IMG/VR virus record: IMGVR_UViG_3300037245_000561
Coordinates: 1 to 22,357 of that record
Reading direction: 5' to 3' (one strand)
DNA from: a virus
Length of the DNA stretch: 22,357 bases
Of this stretch, positions 997-21,521 are shown one piece after another. Positions within the stretch are counted from its first letter, which is position 1. Each line of letters starts with the position of its first letter. Under the pieces are notes generated by a model. That model was not told the origin of the DNA. It worked only from the letters and a program-made list of their open reading frames with translations, and did no database searches. The translations under genes were made by a program, and so were the position numbers.

Positions 997-2724
997 TTAA
1001 GCTAATTTTAGGAACCCACTTCCATCAACATAAACGGAGCCTGCCGTTCCCGCTGATGATGGGGGATTAAAAGACAATTCGTTCGTCCCCCCTACTCTTT
1101 TTATTTCCATTAATTCATCAAACCCATCTGTACCGCCTGTTACCTTGAACGCCCCAAAGTTATCAGCCCCATCACGGACAAATCCCATTATACCGATTTG
1201 TTCGCTTACTGCACTATCATCTTCTACCAGAAATCTTAAACCAGGACCAAACCCATCTACCATCGTGGCCGATGTTTTGTGCTTCATTGCGAATACGCTA
1301 TTAAACACATTTGTTTGGGATGTTGTTCTTTCGACCTGACCACTACCAGTTCCAGTTACGCTTATAGTGTCAATAGTTCCTGAAAAGGTTGCGTGTTTAT
1401 TTGAATCTATGGTAAGAGCTTCCTCGAACCCATCTAACCCAACATTTACAACAAATTTTCCCTTATTATCCGCTGTGTCTCTAACAAACCCTATTTGCCC
1501 TATTTGTTCATCTACTCCACTAACATCCTCAATTAAGAATCGTAAGGCTGAACCAAATCCATCTACCATATTGGCCGATGTTTTATGTTTCAAACCGAAA
1601 ATAGAATTAAACACATTTGTTTGTGATGTTGTTCTTTCCATCCTAGAACTACCCGTTCCAGTTAAATCAAAAGTTACACTTGACCCTGGAATCTTATTTA
1701 TACCAAATGTTTTGTTTGAAACATCGCCATATATAAGTACCCCAGTTGTCTCAGCTTTTACTTCAAAATCACCGGTCGATAAGGCTGAAAAATTAAGTGT
1801 AATTTTACCTGCGTTATTGATTTCTTGATGTATGCTTGAAGAACCTCCGTCAAGCTTTGTTCTAAAGTGAAATTTTGAACCTCTATCTCCAGAAGTTACA
1901 CCATCGGTTTTGGCAGTTATGTCGCCACCAAACCCTCCAAACGCTGCATCATCATAAAAAGCGATTTGAGACATATACCTATTATCCACATTACCGCTAC
2001 TTCCTTTCATAGTAAGTATAGGAAAACGATTGCTTACTATAGATTCTATGTTTAGAGAAGGATAACCAGAGCCAAGTCCTGATACATCAACATTAGCTGT
2101 ACCGATTGACGCCCCATTTTTAGATACTTCAACTTTAAAAGCTGTTCCTGTAGTTTGGGCTAGTACTTCAAGATCACCACCTGATAAGGCTGAAAAATTT
2201 AATGTAATTTTACCCGCATTATTAATTTCCTGGTGGGTACTTGAGGAACCTCCGTCAAGCTTTGTTCTAAAATAAAACTTTGAACCTCTATCTCCAGAAG
2301 TTACCCCATCAGTCCTAAAACCTATGTCTCCGCCAAAACCACCGAACGCGGCATCATCATAAAAAGTAATCTGACCTACATTCCTATTATCTACATTGCC
2401 ACTAGTACCTTTCAAGGTAAATATAGGAAAGCGATTACTTACTATAGATTCTATGTTTAGAGAAGGATAATCAGAGCCAAGTCCTGAGGGATCAACATTA
2501 GCTGTACCGATTGACGCTCCGTTTACAGACACACCAACTTTAAAAGCTGTTCCTGTAGTTTGGGCTAGTACTTCAAGATCCGCGAATTCTGTCGCGTTTA
2601 GGTTCATAGTGATTTTTTTTGTGCTATTATTTAATTCCATAGCGTCAAACGATATCATCGCTTGCTTGCCGCCTGCGGGAACTCCGCTAGGTATTGATGC
2701 TCTATTCGCTACTAATGTTGCCAT
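997..2724 (-). CDS. Tail fibre-like protein built from two sets of tandem repeats
   Basis: The protein has 575 residues and is rich in glycine, serine, threonine and asparagine, with a beta-rich look. It contains two internal duplications. Unit A is 135 residues (37-171 and 172-306, with a partial third copy at about 307-330, each beginning KIT followed by an alternating stretch). Unit B is 102 residues (355-456 and 457-558, each beginning TGTGS and sharing ERTTSQTNVFNS). The C-terminus, SSAGTAGSVYVDGSGFLKLA, resembles ends of fibre or appendage proteins in marine phages (from memory). No peptidase or intramolecular chaperone domain is visible. The start follows an AAAGGA ribosome site. It probably forms an elongated trimeric fibre or tip appendage on the tail; receptor binding is an inference. 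Confidence 0.75.
   Translation of the reverse strand: MATLVANRASIPSGVPAGGKQAMISFDAMELNNSTKKITMNLNATEFADLEVLAQTTGTAFKVGVSVNGASIGTANVDPSGLGSDYPSLNIESIVSNRFPIFTLKGTSGNVDNRNVGQITFYDDAAFGGFGGDIGFRTDGVTSGDRGSKFYFRTKLDGGSSSTHQEINNAGKITLNFSALSGGDLEVLAQTTGTAFKVEVSKNGASIGTANVDVSGLGSGYPSLNIESIVSNRFPILTMKGSSGNVDNRYMSQIAFYDDAAFGGFGGDITAKTDGVTSGDRGSKFHFRTKLDGGSSSIHQEINNAGKITLNFSALSTGDFEVKAETTGVLIYGDVSNKTFGINKIPGSSVTFDLTGTGSSRMERTTSQTNVFNSIFGLKHKTSANMVDGFGSALRFLIEDVSGVDEQIGQIGFVRDTADNKGKFVVNVGLDGFEEALTIDSNKHATFSGTIDTISVTGTGSGQVERTTSQTNVFNSVFAMKHKTSATMVDGFGPGLRFLVEDDSAVSEQIGIMGFVRDGADNFGAFKVTGGTDGFDELMEIKRVGGTNELSFNPPSSAGTAGSVYVDGSGFLKLA
1051..1662 (-). repeat. Tandem repeat pair B inside the fibre gene (about 306 bases per unit)
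   Basis: Unit B1 spans about 1357-1662 and unit B2 about 1051-1356 (residues 355-456 and 457-558). Both share TGTGS, ERTTSQTNVFNS, KHKTSA-MVDGFG and a GFVRD motif in the same register, with a constant offset of 102 residues. The DNA has diverged more than pair A, so this looks like an older duplication. Confidence 0.85.
1807..2616 (-). repeat. Tandem repeat pair A inside the fibre gene (405 bases per unit)
   Basis: Unit A1 is 2212-2616 and unit A2 is 1807-2211 (residues 37-171 and 172-306). The offset is exactly 135 residues. Long stretches are nearly identical at the DNA level, for example around 2420-2520 against 2015-2115, which points to a fairly recent in-frame duplication. A degraded third copy begins right after A2. 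Confidence 0.9.
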
Positions 2725-3199: not shown

Positions 3200-3520
3200 T
3201 TATAAGCAAAGGCCTGGAGATTCTTTACAGAACCTTGCTCTTGCTTTATCTTCTATTAAAATATTTTTAACTGAATCAATTTCTTGTTTTGTAAACATTA
3301 ATCTAACGTACACTTGCTGATGAAACAGTGCTCTTTTTCTAAGCTTTAGTTCATCATCCATTCTAGTTTTTATTGGTTTTATAACAAAATCTCTTGCAGC
3401 TTGGTATCCATGGTAACCCCCTAAACTACTCACTCCCAAAAATATAGAAAATAATGTAGCTAGTATGGTGGAAGGTTTTTTAACTATTCTAATAGCTTCC
3501 GTAGTATCTACTTTAAGCAT
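3200..3520 (-). CDS. Small protein with one N-terminal membrane helix, candidate lysis accessory protein
   Basis: The protein has 106 residues. A charged N-terminus (1-16) is followed by a hydrophobic segment at about 17-40 (PSTILATLFSIFLGVSSLGG). The rest is charged and helical (51-100), with cysteines at 98 and 105. The topology, a single anchor followed by a helical soluble domain, resembles inner-membrane spanins, but no partner outer-membrane lipoprotein or lipobox is visible, so that role is speculative. It overlaps the end of the receiver-domain gene by 8 bases and has its own AAGGAAG ribosome site. It is the last of a three-gene group downstream of the tape measure. Confidence 0.65.
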   Translation of the reverse strand: MLKVDTTEAIRIVKKPSTILATLFSIFLGVSSLGGYHGYQAARDFVIKPIKTRMDDELKLRKRALFHQQVYVRLMFTKQEIDSVKNILIEDKARARFCKESPGLCL

Positions 3521-3890
3521 TTAGTAACTTCCTTTTTTCTTTAGTGTATTGAAACCACCCCAACACTGATTCTTTTTCGTACTTCTTTATAATAGCTGAA
3601 ATTTTATCGTTGTCAAGATTTGATTTTTGGTATACTTCTGAATTAGTGCTCATTAAAGCAAAATCAGCACTTATATGCTGCGCCAGTGAAGTTATTAATA
3701 TGTTTCCGTAAGTCCAACTTAAGGCATAGTCTACAAATACTATGTCGAAGAATTTCATTTCTTCTATCTCGATTTGGGATTCTGTGACAAAAGAACAAAT
3801 CTTTACATTCATACCTTCAAAATAACTAATAAATAGAGCAATGAACACCTCGTCGTCGTCAACCACAGCTATGCTAATTGTCTTTTTCAT
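3513..3890 (-). CDS. Stand-alone CheY-like receiver domain protein
   Basis: Starting at ATG 3890 the protein has 125 residues, the usual size of a single receiver domain. It shows the hallmarks in order: VVDDDE (acidic pocket D11-D13), FDIVFVDYAL with candidate phosphoacceptor D54, ALMSTN giving the S/T81-82 switch position, and IIKKYEK giving the lysine at 102-103. No DNA-binding or enzymatic output domain follows. The start was chosen because its ATG overlaps the upstream stop (ATGA at 3890-3887); an in-frame upstream extension to 3950 lies wholly inside the preceding gene. Receivers are phosphorylated by histidine kinases in the host cytoplasm. A free receiver between two small membrane proteins in a phage late operon is unusual. 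It may tap into host signalling or act as a phosphate sink. Function is inferred. Confidence 0.75.
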   Translation of the reverse strand: MKKTISIAVVDDDEVFIALFISYFEGMNVKICSFVTESQIEIEEMKFFDIVFVDYALSWTYGNILITSLAQHISADFALMSTNSEVYQKSNLDNDKISAIIKKYEKESVLGWFQYTKEKRKLLNA

Positions 3891-4258
3891 CCTGGAGGGG
3901 GCCTCACGTATGCCATAATTGTCATTACTGCCGTTATTACTGCGGTACATGCACTCATGACCACAATAAGATTAGTTAAAGAAACTGTATTTTTTAATCT
4001 TTCGTTAATAGGTTTAAGCGCAGATTCTAACTCTGGTTTTTTTACGTAGTCAGCAGCATTTACACTTGACTGCAACTCTTTTAAAGTTACTTTTATTTCC
4101 GAGTAATTTTTATGATCTTGAATTTCTACTATTTTTGCAATTTCTATGTGGCTATCCATTTTAGATTTTAAAGCTGTAGTATCATCTACTACTTTAGAAA
4201 TCCGTTTATCTTGCTTTTCAAGCTGTGAATAAGTATGTCTTTTAAATTCATCGTCCAT
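3887..4258 (-). CDS. Coiled-coil protein with a C-terminal membrane helix, holin-like candidate
   Basis: The protein has 123 residues. Residues 1-90 are highly charged and helical, with heptad-like spacing. Residues 92-118 form one hydrophobic segment (LTNLIVVMSACTAVITAVMTIM), followed by a short RPPPG tail. This layout resembles XhlA-type holin accessory proteins and other small phage membrane proteins placed after the tape measure, but no family signature is certain. It starts 9 bases after the tape-measure gene ends, and its stop overlaps the receiver-domain start (ATGA), so the two are probably translationally coupled. The ribosome site is weak. Confidence 0.65.
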   Translation of the reverse strand: MDDEFKRHTYSQLEKQDKRISKVVDDTTALKSKMDSHIEIAKIVEIQDHKNYSEIKVTLKELQSSVNAADYVKKPELESALKPINERLKNTVSLTNLIVVMSACTAVITAVMTIMAYVRPPPG

Positions 4259-6678: not shown

Positions 6679-7014
6679 TTATTTTTTGAGAGCTTCATAC
6701 TCTGATAAAGCATCTTCGTAAACATTGATAGCTGAAATAAAACGTCTTGGAATATCTTTATAGGCGGGCATAGGTGCTGAAGAAAACTTTTTATGATATT
6801 CATATTCTGCATGCCATTTATACAATGAAAGAGGTATAAATTTTTTAGGGCAGTTCCAGTATACATAAGTTTTATCTCCAATCGTTTCTAATTCTACTCG
6901 CTTCGGGGCAGGCTTCCCGTCGCAACCTCTTTGTCTTGCCATTCTATCATCATGAGGACACAACTTACATGGTGCGGTAGGAAGTCTCCCAATGTGATAA
7001 CCTGCTAGTATTCT
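6679..7014 (-). CDS. Tail chaperone T part, made as a G-T fusion by -1 frameshift
   Basis: This frame encodes 111 residues after the slip at G GGT TTA, starting RILAGYHIGRLP and ending EYEALKK. It is open upstream only to a TGA at 7035-7033, inside gene G. No ATG with a ribosome site exists: the first possible starts are TTG at 6963 and an internal ATG at 6942. Synthesis as a G-T fusion of 263 residues is therefore the best model. The region contains APCKLCPHDD and a further RGCDG cysteine, possibly a small metal site. The later part (LYKWHAEYEYHKKF and AINVYEDAL) is helical. In lambda, gpG-T recruits tape measure and tube subunits during tail assembly. The gene sits directly before the tape measure, as expected. 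Confidence 0.8.
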   Translation of the reverse strand, partial: RILAGYHIGRLPTAPCKLCPHDDRMARQRGCDGKPAPKRVELETIGDKTYVYWNCPKKFIPLSLYKWHAEYEYHKKFSSAPMPAYKDIPRRFISAINVYEDALSEYEALKK

Positions 7015-7469
7015 AAACCCTGTAGTTCCTCTTCAGTTAAAACAGATTGCTCGTTAATCGCTTCTTGTAGCTCTCTTTGTAATTCAGCAGAGAGTCTTTG
7101 CATAGAAGTCTTGTATACTACACCACCTTCAGCATGAAATTTAATTTCTACTCCATCGCGATCTTTAAAATTTGACCAACCGAGTATATGTTTTTGTAAT
7201 GTTGCTATTCTGGATTTTCCACCAGTTAAAACTACGTGAGTAGTTTCTGCTTCCATGTACCCTGCGTTATCTTCAGACTCGGCTATCTCTAACCCGTTTT
7301 TTCCTTTGAGTTTAAATATAGGCCATTCACTTTTAGGGATAACATCCTCTCCTGCTAGCCTATAAACTTTAGGTACGTATAAAAATTCGTGAGTCTGTGA
7401 TAAGCCACGAATTTTATTGAGCTTTGCTTCTAGCTCTGGTGTAATCTTTTTTTCTTCTTCTGTATTCAT
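7005..7469 (-). CDS. Tail assembly chaperone (gpG-like)
   Basis: The protein has 154 residues, is acidic and mostly helical, with no membrane segment. Position between the tail tube gene and the tape measure, plus a -1 slippery site three codons before its stop, identifies it as the short product of the G/G-T chaperone pair. The sequence itself (MNTEEEKKITPELE... VLTEEELQGLEY) carries no motif that I would trust alone. The ATG at 7469 follows a usable purine-rich ribosome site (AAAAGGAG). In lambda-type phages an excess of G over G-T is needed to build the tail. Confidence 0.8.
   Translation of the reverse strand: MNTEEEKKITPELEAKLNKIRGLSQTHEFLYVPKVYRLAGEDVIPKSEWPIFKLKGKNGLEIAESEDNAGYMEAETTHVVLTGGKSRIATLQKHILGWSNFKDRDGVEIKFHAEGGVVYKTSMQRLSAELQRELQEAINEQSVLTEEELQGLEY
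7014..7020 (-). promoter_or_regulatory. Programmed -1 frameshift slippery heptamer G GGT TTA
   Basis: On the coding strand the sequence GGGTTTA lies in the zero frame as G GGT TTA, the canonical X XXY YYZ form. It precedes GAA TAC TAG, so the zero-frame stop comes two codons later. Slipping by -1 places the ribosome on GGG TTT then AGA, entering the open T frame. Both tRNAs can re-pair (Gly GGT to GGG, Leu TTA to TTT) with at least two bases. No convincing strong downstream pseudoknot or stem was found by eye. Confidence 0.85.
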
Positions 7470-7502: not shown

Positions 7503-8534
7503 TTATGATTTAGATCCTTGTAAGATTTCGAATGTATCGTTACCGCCTGTTGCTCCTTCTGGAGGAGTGCCTTGAGTAAGTAAGAAATTGGTTGCCGATG
7601 TTCGTGCCCCATTTCTATCACCGATTTCTAATCCAATACGTTGAGCCTTTGGTGCGGTTAACCTAATATCAGGGTCGCCTCCATTAGCTACAATAATTTC
7701 TAATGCCATTGCAGTGCAATTTATCCACTGCGTATATATTGGCTCTATAGAAAGCTGCTTCATAGTCGGGTCTACAGTCAATGTAGGTTCAAAACCTGCT
7801 CTGTAGAATCCTTTAATACCAGTGCTTCTGGAAGGATCTATCCATTCTTGAATGTCATTGTTCATTGCAATTTCGAATGTATCTAAGTCTTGATCGATTC
7901 CGTCTACTGCAACAGAAGTAGATAAAACAGCTCCTGGTTTGATAACTGATAACGATGTAGGGTCCAAACGACTTGCAAAAGCGCTGTCGGACATAGATGT
8001 AAATGACCCAGAAAATTCAAATTGCATTTGAACAGGTTCGCCTACTGTGCCAATCATGAATGTCACATTACCCATCATTCCTTGAAATCTAGTAACTAAA
8101 TTATTAGCAGACGCTCCTTCAAGTTGCTCGATCACAGCCATAGTTAAGGGTACATGAGTCATCTCTACGTGAGGTACGAAAGAAATACCATCTACAGCAG
8201 AACCGACGGCAACCTCTACGTTGTTGTCCCAGCCGATAGCTTTCATGCCACATGCTTGTACAAGTTTTGACCACTTAGGTTCTGTAGTTGCTAAGGCACC
8301 GGGAGCCATGTCTACAGTAAAAGAAACTGTTCCTCTTTGTCTTCCTGGTACTGATATAGCGTGGTCTAAAGTTCCATCTAAATATTTTCTTCTATATTCA
8401 TCGATTTCTACTGAGTAAGATACATCATTTCTGATACGTACATCAAAATCAGCATCGGCTAAAATTTCCCCTGACTCATTATAAGGTGTGCCTTCTAGCT
8501 TGGCGACAATGGTTGTTTTATTGGTAAGAAACAT
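7503..8534 (-). CDS. Major tail tube protein
   Basis: The protein has 343 residues, is beta-rich and has no membrane segment. Features are an N-terminal MFLTNKTTIVAKLEGTPY, an early SVEIDEYRRKYLDGTLDHA, then PGRQRGTVSFTVDM and a later FEFSGSF. These fit the phage tail tube families in which a long two-sheet domain stacks as hexameric rings. Position between the tail terminator candidate and the frameshifted chaperones is the standard place for the tube gene. It is longer than a minimal tube protein (about 150-250 residues), so an extra surface domain is likely. A strong AAGGAGAAC ribosome site precedes ATG 8534. Confidence 0.8.
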   Translation of the reverse strand: MFLTNKTTIVAKLEGTPYNESGEILADADFDVRIRNDVSYSVEIDEYRRKYLDGTLDHAISVPGRQRGTVSFTVDMAPGALATTEPKWSKLVQACGMKAIGWDNNVEVAVGSAVDGISFVPHVEMTHVPLTMAVIEQLEGASANNLVTRFQGMMGNVTFMIGTVGEPVQMQFEFSGSFTSMSDSAFASRLDPTSLSVIKPGAVLSTSVAVDGIDQDLDTFEIAMNNDIQEWIDPSRSTGIKGFYRAGFEPTLTVDPTMKQLSIEPIYTQWINCTAMALEIIVANGGDPDIRLTAPKAQRIGLEIGDRNGARTSATNFLLTQGTPPEGATGGNDTFEILQGSKS

Positions 8535-18830: not shown

Positions 18831-19715
18831 TTATTTTATTAATGCGTTAAACTCTTGTCTCAAGTCTGGTTGCTTAAAAGCCCCTCTTAGCGCAGATGTG
18901 ATCATAGATCTGTTTTGCTTACCTACTCCTCTTGCGCACATGCAATGATGCTTCGCTTCGATAACTACCATTGCAGACTCGCATCCGTCAATGTGTTCGG
19001 TGATAGCATTAGCAACTTGATCAGTTAGCTGTTCTTGTATCTGCAATCGTCTCGCATAGACATCTACCAGCCTTGCTAACTTAGACAAGCCAACTACCTT
19101 ACCGTTAGGTATGTAACCTATGTGAACTTTACCAAAGAAAGGTAGCATGTGATGTTCACACATACTGTAGAACTCTATGTCTTTACATATTACGAGAGAT
19201 GTATTATCAGAAGAGAACACTGTGCCTAGGACATCTTTGGCTTTTTGATTGTATCCTGAGTAGAGTTCTTTCCATGACTTAACTACACGCTTAGGTGTAT
19301 CTAACAAGCCTTCTCTTGTTGGGTCTTCCCCTATGTGTTGTAGATAGCGAGTTATGGTAGACATGGCATCACCATCTTTGCCTTCATGCTCCCATGGGAA
19401 TACAAGCCAATGCCCGTCAGCCTTAGTGCATCCCCAAAACTTTTTATCGGGATACATCTTCATCCATTTCTTTTCAGTAGCTCCTGAGTCTATAATGTCG
19501 TCAACTATTACATTGCACTCATGTGCATGCTGAACCATTACAGCTTTGCCCATTACATGTAAGAGCATAGCGATGTATGTACCGCCTCTAGGGACACCAT
19601 ACACTTTAGTCTCAGGAGGTAACTCCCAATAGTCATTTATCTCATCTCTAAGATTGTCCCATGTAAGGTTTACGGTTGGTTTATTATCTTGTGTGTCTGT
19701 AGGCTTAGTCTCCAT
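18831..19715 (-). CDS. folE: GTP cyclohydrolase I with an N-terminal phosphoribosyltransferase domain
   Basis: The protein has 294 residues. FolE occupies about 116-294: [33 protein letters not shown] with zinc ligands C186 and H189, [23 protein letters not shown], and [15 protein letters not shown] with C258. FolE turns GTP into dihydroneopterin triphosphate, the first step to preQ0. Residues 1-115 form a small type I phosphoribosyltransferase-like domain: [15 protein letters not shown], then the PRPP-binding [13 protein letters not shown] (69-81) and WLVFPWE, typical of purine PRTases. FolE proteins are normally 180-220 residues. The fusion may couple purine salvage to deazaguanine synthesis (inference). 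It overlaps QueE by 46 bases and has an AAGGAG site 11 bases upstream. Confidence 0.95.
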
Positions 19716-20344
19716 GGAAGTCCTAGCTCCTTAACTTTTTGAATGGTTGCATTAGTGTTGAATAAGTTTATCTGAGCGTCTTGCTTGTCGATAGGTTGCA
19801 AGAAGCGTTGTATGCTGTGACTGCTTACTTTAACTATTACTTTATTAAAGTCCTCTGGTGTGATCTTTGGATTAGGGTGAGGGTACAATAACTTTAAGGT
19901 GGTTACATGTTGCCAATCTATTTTACATTCTTCTGGAGATAACTTAGGGCTACATGTTACGAAGTCTAGTATGCTTAGTATAGCAGGCTTGTTAACGGTG
20001 CCGTTAGTTTCGACTTGCGTGGTGAAACCTAACTCATGTAACTCTTTAACTAGGTCTACTAGGTCGGATTCTTGTTGTAACAAGGGCTCACCTCCAGACA
20101 GCACTACTAACATGTTAGTCTTGCCTCTTGTTAGATGTGCTACTTCGCCTACGACTTCGTGTACAGACATCTTCTCACCGTCAGTGAAGTCTGTGTCACA
20201 GAAGGGACACTTACTCTCTGCTTGGTCTTCGGGCTTACCAGACCACATGTTACATCCAGAGAAACGAATGAAGATGGCGGGACATCCTGCTGTCTCTCCT
20301 TCGCCTTGTATAGTGGGCCCGAATATTTCTTTAACTAATAACAT
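19670..20344 (-). CDS. queE: 7-carboxy-7-deazaguanine synthase (radical SAM), long-loop type
   Basis: The protein has 224 residues. It opens [28 protein letters not shown], the QueE signature. The iron-sulphur cysteines are C31, C46 and C49, a CX14CX2C spacing like the Burkholderia-type QueE rather than the usual CX3CX2C. SGGEPLLQ at 83-90 binds the methionine of SAM. The enzyme converts 6-carboxytetrahydropterin (from QueD) to 7-carboxy-7-deazaguanine, the substrate of QueC. ATG 20344 directly follows the upstream 64-residue gene's stop, and AAAGGA provides a ribosome site. Length is normal. Confidence 0.95.
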
Positions 20345-20345
20345 C

Positions 20346-20540
20346 TTATTTCAGTCCTTTGATGTAATCGACAACCGCGTCTACTATTGCTAATGACAAG
20401 CGGTACTCGTGCTTCTCTTGGACTTTGGGAATGTCTATCTTGTCTGAGATAGTCTTTGCAATCTTCTCGCGGAACTCTCCATCATCTAACTTCTTGAGGA
20501 CGTAGCCTAGTGCTATCTTCAGTGCGAATTTTTTAATCAT
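20346..20540 (-). CDS. Unknown 64-residue helical protein inside the que cluster
   Basis: A small lysine-rich helical protein: MIKKFALKIALGYVLKKLDDGEF, then DKIDIPKVQEKHEYRLSLAIVDAVVDY. It has no clear membrane segment, although the first 17 residues are amphipathic. An AGGAG ribosome site lies upstream of ATG 20540. It sits between QueD and QueE, so it is co-expressed with the preQ0 enzymes. I do not recognise it. A role as regulator or stabiliser of the pathway is only a guess. Confidence 0.7.
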   Translation of the reverse strand: MIKKFALKIALGYVLKKLDDGEFREKIAKTISDKIDIPKVQEKHEYRLSLAIVDAVVDYIKGLK

Positions 20541-20566
20541 GTTGTTACTCCTGGTTTGTGGGTTGG

Positions 20567-21010
20567 TTAATCTAATTCAACTTCTACGAAGCAGTTCTCA
20601 GTTTCCCACAGCACTATCTTGTATATCTCGACATCAGTGTCTTCGAACAGTCCAGGACATATAACATTAAGGAAGTGGTCTGCCATGTTCTCGGCAGTAG
20701 GGTTGGTAGACATGCCGTACTTCTTCTGCTTGTGTCCAATGAGCTTATCTAGCGCGTGAGCTACTTCTATATCATCGAAGAAGTAAATAAAGCCGTGATC
20801 CCACTTGTCTTGAATCCAATCGTTGCACTTAGCTTTAATGACTGAGAAGTCTATTACCCTACCTAACGTGTCTAGGGCAAGACCCTTCTTAGGCCTAGCA
20901 TGTATGTATATGATATAGTTGTGTCCGTGCATGTTATTGCACTTGGACTCGTGCTTGTGGACTCTATGTCCTGCACAGAACTGTAGTCTTCTAACTGCTG
21001 TGTATGCCAT
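20567..21010 (-). CDS. queD: 6-carboxy-5,6,7,8-tetrahydropterin synthase
   Basis: From ATG 21010 the protein has 147 residues. The family signature is clear: RLQFCAGHRVHKHESKC, then NNMHGHNY with zinc ligands H15, H28 and H30 and catalytic C24. Next come GRVIDFSVIK, a DHGFIYF segment, NPTAENMADHF and LWETENCFVEVEL. The enzyme turns dihydroneopterin triphosphate from FolE into carboxytetrahydropterin for QueE. The start at 21010, not an in-frame codon 30 bases upstream, is chosen because AGGAGA lies 8 bases before it. It overlaps the end of QueC by 20 bases. Length is slightly longer than the usual 120. Confidence 0.95.
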   Translation of the reverse strand: MAYTAVRRLQFCAGHRVHKHESKCNNMHGHNYIIYIHARPKKGLALDTLGRVIDFSVIKAKCNDWIQDKWDHGFIYFFDDIEVAHALDKLIGHKQKKYGMSTNPTAENMADHFLNVICPGLFEDTDVEIYKIVLWETENCFVEVELD

Positions 21011-21521
21011 GTATCTGTCTCCTCTCTTTGCAATTAACACAATCGCAAGTTAAATAGTTGTCTTTGTTATTGTAGCAGTTATATCCGTAGAACTGTAAAT
21101 CTTCCTTAAATAGGTAACGGAAGATGCGACGCTTAGTCCACCACATTACAGGAAACTTAACTTTGATGCCTAACAACCAGGCAAAGAGTTTGAGTGCTAT
21201 GTAATTAGAGTCGCCATACTTGTCACCTATGTATGTTGGGTTACGAGTACCCATGTATACGTGAGTGTAACCTTCTTGTTTAAGCCTTAATAGGAATAAG
21301 AAGTTGCGTCCAGGCATATCGGTTGTTCCCTGGCTAAGGCGATAGGTTTTTAATTTATGTGACTGCCGTGCTGTATACATAGCAGCAGCTTTATACTCTT
21401 TACCTTCATAGAGCTGTCCGTATTTGAAGAACACATATGCCGCTTCTACGTCCTTAACTCTTTCAGCTACCGCTATGCTATCGAAGCCTCCACTCATTAG
21501 GGTAGCTACCTTCTTAATCAT
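20991..21521 (-). CDS. queC: 7-cyano-7-deazaguanine (preQ0) synthase
   Basis: The protein has 176 residues. A PP-loop nucleotide-binding motif SGGFDS (10-15) opens the protein, PGRNFLFLL (70-78) follows, and the C-terminal zinc cysteines are C149, C159, C161 and C164 within NYLTCDCVNCKERR. QueC uses ATP to convert 7-carboxy-7-deazaguanine and ammonia to preQ0. It is shorter than bacterial QueC (about 220-230), with the loss in the middle. Key motifs remain, so it is likely active. Its ATG overlaps the upstream stop (ATGA), indicating coupling. It could be a diverged phage QueC, and no amidotransferase domain is attached. Confidence 0.92.
   Translation of the reverse strand: MIKKVATLMSGGFDSIAVAERVKDVEAAYVFFKYGQLYEGKEYKAAAMYTARQSHKLKTYRLSQGTTDMPGRNFLFLLRLKQEGYTHVYMGTRNPTYIGDKYGDSNYIALKLFAWLLGIKVKFPVMWWTKRRIFRYLFKEDLQFYGYNCYNNKDNYLTCDCVNCKERRQIHGIHSS

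Follow-up and report, generated by a model that had tools for sequence, protein, structure and literature searches.

A conserved G_GGT_TTA slip site and a probable lambda G/GT-type −1 frameshift in a tail gene family of uncultured phages

Results

Two overlapping reading frames that precede the tape measure gene in a 22,357-nucleotide stretch of viral DNA (IMG/VR record IMGVR_UViG_3300037245_000561, positions 1 to 22,357; hereafter the window) are almost certainly joined by a programmed −1 frameshift of the lambda G/GT type at the heptamer G_GGT_TTA, which would yield a G-T fusion protein. A preliminary description made from the letters of the window had proposed such a shift, and a programmed −1 shift to a G-T fusion, lying between the tube-like and tape measure genes, is supported as by far the best reading of the sequence. 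The source appears, from the same evidence, to be an uncultured tailed phage that produces a tail-building helper protein in two forms. The evidence computed here comprises the anatomy of the sequence, its conservation in relatives, a signature of coding in T before any start codon is reached, the order of the genes and a chaperone-like predicted fold of G. The genes run on the minus strand in the order tube-like gene, G, T, tape measure gene, and the features referred to below are the following.

7503 to 8534, minus strand: tube-like gene (343 amino acids), which, judged by position, probably encodes the major tail tube protein
7005 to 7469, minus strand: G reading frame, 154 amino acids, the zero-frame product and a probable tail assembly chaperone, as judged from its ribosome-binding site, predicted fold and position
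7027 to 7031, minus strand: GAGGA, candidate Shine-Dalgarno-like 5′ stimulator, ending 6 nt before the heptamer
7014 to 7020, minus strand: slippery heptamer G_GGT_TTA in the zero frame, shared by 18 of the 22 dereplicated records
7005 to 7007, minus strand: zero-frame stop codon TAG of G, two codons past the heptamer
6679 to 7014, minus strand: T frame (−1), which starts at junction residue R and comprises 111 codons and a stop codon
4267 to 6660, minus strand: tape measure protein gene (PF10145, E 6.8e-22; PHROG tape measure families, best E 9.8e-52)

For the tube-like gene (7503 to 8534), Pfam and PHROG searches gave no match up to E 0.1.

Slip site at the end of G

The 3′ end of G reads ..GAA GAG GAA CTA CAG GGT TTA GAA TAC TAG, and GGGTTTA begins on the last base of a zero-frame codon (CAG GGT TTA). 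The heptamer is thus seen where it had been described, in the zero frame and two codons before TAG, at 7020-7014. The fusion of 263 residues claimed at the outset was also reproduced: continuing G in the −1 frame gives 152 + 111 residues, with a stop codon ending at 6679 and the junction ..LQGL/RILAGYH... Upstream of this junction the −1 frame is open for 18 nt only, and the first ATG, GTG or TTG in that frame lies 17 codons past the junction with no ribosome-binding-site pairing, which bears out the remark that T has no good start of its own.

Of 6698 in-frame codon-pair positions in the 25 minus-strand open reading frames of the window, 41 have the form XXXYYYZ, and shuffling of the G codons placed any XXXYYYZ within the last eight codons in 5.3% of 20,000 shuffles. 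Taken alone, the single heptamer in the window is suggestive, its occurrence by chance being only moderately surprising; its recurrence at the same place in 18 of the 22 dereplicated records indicates that chance is not the cause.

Relatives and variation of the site

Relatives were collected by protein and profile scans of viral contigs, one DNA pattern scan and scans of genome contigs. Twenty-three related records cover the 3′ end of G together with the junction; along with the window, and less two near-duplicates, they make up the 22 dereplicated records. Removed before counting were 3300042731_003972 (L019/L059), truncated inside G; 3300038548_000006, which barely differs from the window; and 3300017987_000122, whose site sequence, G and T are the same as those of 3300029267_002069. 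One record, 3300018080_002239, was recovered solely through the DNA pattern that contains TTTAGAAT; some later profiles were built partly from pattern-found sequences, and none of the DNA patterns included the GGG of the heptamer. The G proteins of 19 aligned relatives are 22 to 55% identical to that of the window. The order tube-like gene, G, T is kept in 23 of 23 related records, the tube-like gene standing directly before G. In 10 of these records T is followed by a gene whose product is homologous to the tape measure protein of the window, some other loci ending before that position. No isolated phage relative was found in the 'phages' collection at E 0.01 or 0.1 with G and T of the window, T of two relatives and G of one relative as queries. 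Genome contigs scanned with the first G profile gave no match, and those scanned with the first T profile gave one contig of a Bacteroidetes MAG, which may be a phage, a prophage or a misbinned contig. One further search recovered nothing beyond the G of the window itself.

The heptamer proved to be conserved, a check that the preliminary description had called for: the site reads GGGTTTA in 18 of the 22 records, AGGTTTA in two, TTCTTTA in one and AGGCTTA, then AAA, in one. The four variants lie at the heptamer position as follows.

L044, 2995-3001: AGGCTTA(AAA)
L006, 3465-3471: TTCTTTA
L049, 2995-3001: AGGTTTA
L060, 3432-3438: AGGTTTA

A strict XXXYYYZ is therefore absent from 4 of the 22 records. 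Relatives that lack the heptamer and keep both reading frames had been named in advance as evidence against a frameshift; these four are such relatives in form, and in them frame and register are kept. At all four variant sites a slip-prone A-site step is retained (T_TTA in three, A_AAA in one) and the P-site triplet deviates. Judged from the sequences, they weaken the case for strict canonical tandem slippage in those four relatives, not the case for frameshifting itself. In the data presented in the cited part of PMC10885494, XXXYYY is missing from most frameshift overlaps. The zero-frame stop of G is TAG or TAA and follows the site by one or two codons (spacing 3 or 6 nt); while this stop varies, the T frame at the junction reads RI[LI]AG.H.G or a variant of it, and the register of T relative to the G codons is identical in all 22 records.

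Constraint on T ahead of any start codon

T codons 4-9 lie past the G stop and ahead of any ATG, GTG or TTG downstream of the junction; in records with the six-nucleotide spacing, the last base of the G stop is the first base of T codon 4. Across this stretch, pairwise differences at codon positions 1, 2 and 3 number 134, 106 and 555, respectively, in 17 of the 21 dereplicated records then available (four with a T start within five codons were removed); the sequence pairs are not independent and no P value is claimed. Third-position bias before any start codon indicates that the stretch is read as protein by ribosomes coming from G. Among 20 aligned T sequences, the junction motif RI.AG never varies at A and retains R, I and G in at least 90% each.

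These data bear directly on whether T might be translated separately, through reinitiation or from a start of its own after the G stop. A nearby T-frame start codon (ATG, GTG or TTG) is present in 7 of the 22 records, in six of them 2 to 10 codons past the junction and in one 48 codons before it, and the upstream GAGGA could in principle hold ribosomes for reinitiation, an idea put forward in the cited part of PMC5009743. Yet the other 15 records have no T-frame start upstream of the junction or within 15 codons after it, the first lying at least 16 codons past (up to 102) or none occurring in the 80 codons covered. Moreover, the T-frame starts of the window show no useful anti-Shine-Dalgarno pairing (TTG 6963, +1.6; ATG 6942, +0.5; ATG 6771, −0.4 kcal/mol) as against −7.9 kcal/mol for the G start, a good ribosome-binding site, and −6.0 kcal/mol for that of the tape measure gene. 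Conservation and third-position bias, furthermore, set in at the junction. We consider separate translation of T very improbable.

Explanations that place the change of frame outside the ribosome fare less well still. RNA polymerase slipping on homopolymer runs does fuse frames elsewhere, the runs being of 9 A or T in the examples given in the cited part of PMC5009743, but the site here offers only GGG and TTT and no long run, and its phase relative to the G codons is constant in 22 of 22 records; transcriptional slippage is accordingly a very improbable source of the fusion. A one-base sequencing or assembly error could likewise produce two overlapping reading frames out of one gene. Such an error would have had to split the gene at the same codon in 22 dereplicated records with different stops (TAG or TAA) and spacings (3 or 6 nt), and we give it scarcely any credence. 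The reading to which we hold is ribosomal frameshifting at the heptamer.

Upstream GAGGA and downstream RNA

In 21 of the 22 records the heptamer is preceded by GAGGA at a distance of 6 or 9 nt (6 nt in most); among phase-matched windows from other parts of G, 88 of 3127 contain it. This feature was absent from the preliminary description. Its distance to the A-site codon is 10 or 13 nt. GAGGA overlaps conserved Glu codons, so that constraint on the protein must be excluded as its cause. At codon −4, GAG is used for 18 of 19 Glu codons versus 105 of 330 in the remainder of G (binomial 1.5e-8, with kinship ignored), and at the adjacent codon −3 for 8 of 20. Calculated pairing with the anti-Shine-Dalgarno is less telling: just 5 of 21 upstream stretches outdo all control windows taken from their own G, and for the window 7.6% of the controls pair as strongly. 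Shine-Dalgarno-like stimulators are placed 9-14 nt from −1 sites in the cited part of PMC5009743, and the spacing of GAGGA from the heptamer (6 or 9 nt) is at or below that range. The conserved GAGGA is a probable 5′ stimulator of slippage.

Downstream of the site, pseudoknot-free RNA folding gave z values of −0.14, 0.27 and −0.19 for 40, 60 and 90 nt in the window, where no stable stem-loop was found over 40-90 nt. By the same procedure, mean z over 21 records was −0.04, −0.60 and −1.35 at these lengths, and in four relatives z fell under −3 for the 60- or 90-nt segment; inspection by eye of these pseudoknot-free structures revealed no common hairpin.

The G and T proteins

The predicted model of G (pLDDT 81.8) resembles tail assembly chaperones in its fold. 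In a search of BFVD, named tail assembly chaperones took ranks 4, 5 and 7 (E 3.9e-4 with TM 0.57, 1.6e-3 and 3.9e-3, respectively) behind unnamed proteins at ranks 1-3. A second look with VIA-align listed HK97 gp13 (PDB 2ob9) as the sole entry; the resemblance is middling (Z 5.3, rmsd 6.9 over 100 residues), but identity is 7%, and Foldseek against the PDB ranked HK97 gp13 eighth at E 7.5. The model of T (pLDDT 87.7) gave nothing convincing against BFVD, the best hit being an unnamed protein at E 0.24 over 59 columns, and against the PDB no chain reached Z ≥2 among 113 aligned. Such a lack of structural matches is no proof of a new fold. Four cysteines of T, at positions 16, 19, 31 and 55, are invariant in 20 aligned sequences and fall in the motifs C-x2-C, GC and N/SCP, a pattern that suggests a putative metal site.

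At the sequence level, none of the 13 G and 13 T sequences then available matched a Pfam or PHROGs family below E 0.01; phrog_3096, a tail assembly chaperone family, was matched by 1 of the 13 G sequences at E 0.037 and by 0 of the 13 T sequences. Profile searches of PDB sequences produced nothing convincing, and literature searches recognised no published description of this G/T family or of a zinc-binding T domain. The G/T sequence family is thus apparently undescribed, and outside Pfam and PHROGs at the thresholds used.

Discussion

We infer slippage from the features above and picture it as follows. The majority of ribosomes would translate G as far as TAG and release the 154-residue protein, and a minority, a share that we also infer, would slip back by one base on G_GGT_TTA and continue into T to give 263 residues. 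In the slip, tRNA-Gly would re-pair with GGG in place of GGT and tRNA-Leu with TTT in place of TTA; GAGGA upstream would probably pair with the anti-Shine-Dalgarno of 16S rRNA and thereby promote the event. By analogy with lambda gpG and gpGT, G may coat the tape measure protein and T may recruit the tail tube subunit.

A −1 shift of the G/GT kind is a known trick of tailed phages; what appears to be new here is the protein family. The slip heptamer of lambda is G_GGA_AAG, unlike the GGGTTTA found here. Totiviruses such as L-A use GGGUUUA at their gag-pol slip site, the same heptamer as here, in unrelated genes and on a eukaryotic ribosome. The arrangement is otherwise that of lambda gpG/gpGT as set out in the cited part of PMC5009743, with two open reading frames before the tape measure gene, a −1 shift late in the first and a C-terminal T domain fused to it; in that account, G of lambda sits on the tape measure protein and T recruits tube subunits. 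Further apparent differences from lambda are the four invariant cysteines of T and the conserved GAGGA before the site. The −1 sites of E. coli dnaX and of IS elements have a 5′ Shine-Dalgarno stimulator, as here, according to PMC5009743; dnaX has a 3′ stem-loop as well, whereas no common one was found here. Relative to those sites, the spacing to the heptamer in this family is 6 or 9 nt.

More tentatively, and with less than even confidence, we suggest that T may be an unclassified domain whose four cysteines bind zinc, and that a −1 shift may be its sole route of expression. Such a shift would rely on the 5′ Shine-Dalgarno element, need no structure in the 3′ RNA and put up with mismatch in the P site (AGG, TTC or CTT for GGG), re-pairing in the A site carrying most of the change of frame. 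The natural series GGGTTTA, AGGTTTA, TTCTTTA and CTTAAAA, together with GAGGA, would let the contribution of each tRNA and of upstream pairing be tested. The G/GT frameshift class hereby gains a sequence family unmatched by Pfam and PHROGs at the thresholds used. For annotation, the benefit is that T would otherwise be called a short separate reading frame or be overlooked.

Other genes in the window

Downstream of the tape measure gene, positions 3513-3950 (minus strand) hold a gene with a match to the response-regulator receiver domain that lies below the curated cut-off (PF00072, E 2e-4). A 575-residue protein with repeated segments, encoded at 997-2724 (minus strand) and with no Pfam match at 0.01, is possibly a tail fibre or appendage. 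At 18831-21521 (minus strand) lies a 7-deazaguanine/queuosine-type gene set consisting of QueC (PF06508), a PTPS/QueD-like protein (PF01242), a QueE-like radical SAM protein (PF04055) and GTP cyclohydrolase I (PF01227), which suggests phage DNA modification. The GTP cyclohydrolase I gene (18831-19715, minus strand) specifies an N-terminal extension of about 115 residues that has no Pfam match at 0.01 and, by a motif in it, resembles a phosphoribosyltransferase-type domain; the product may be a fusion.
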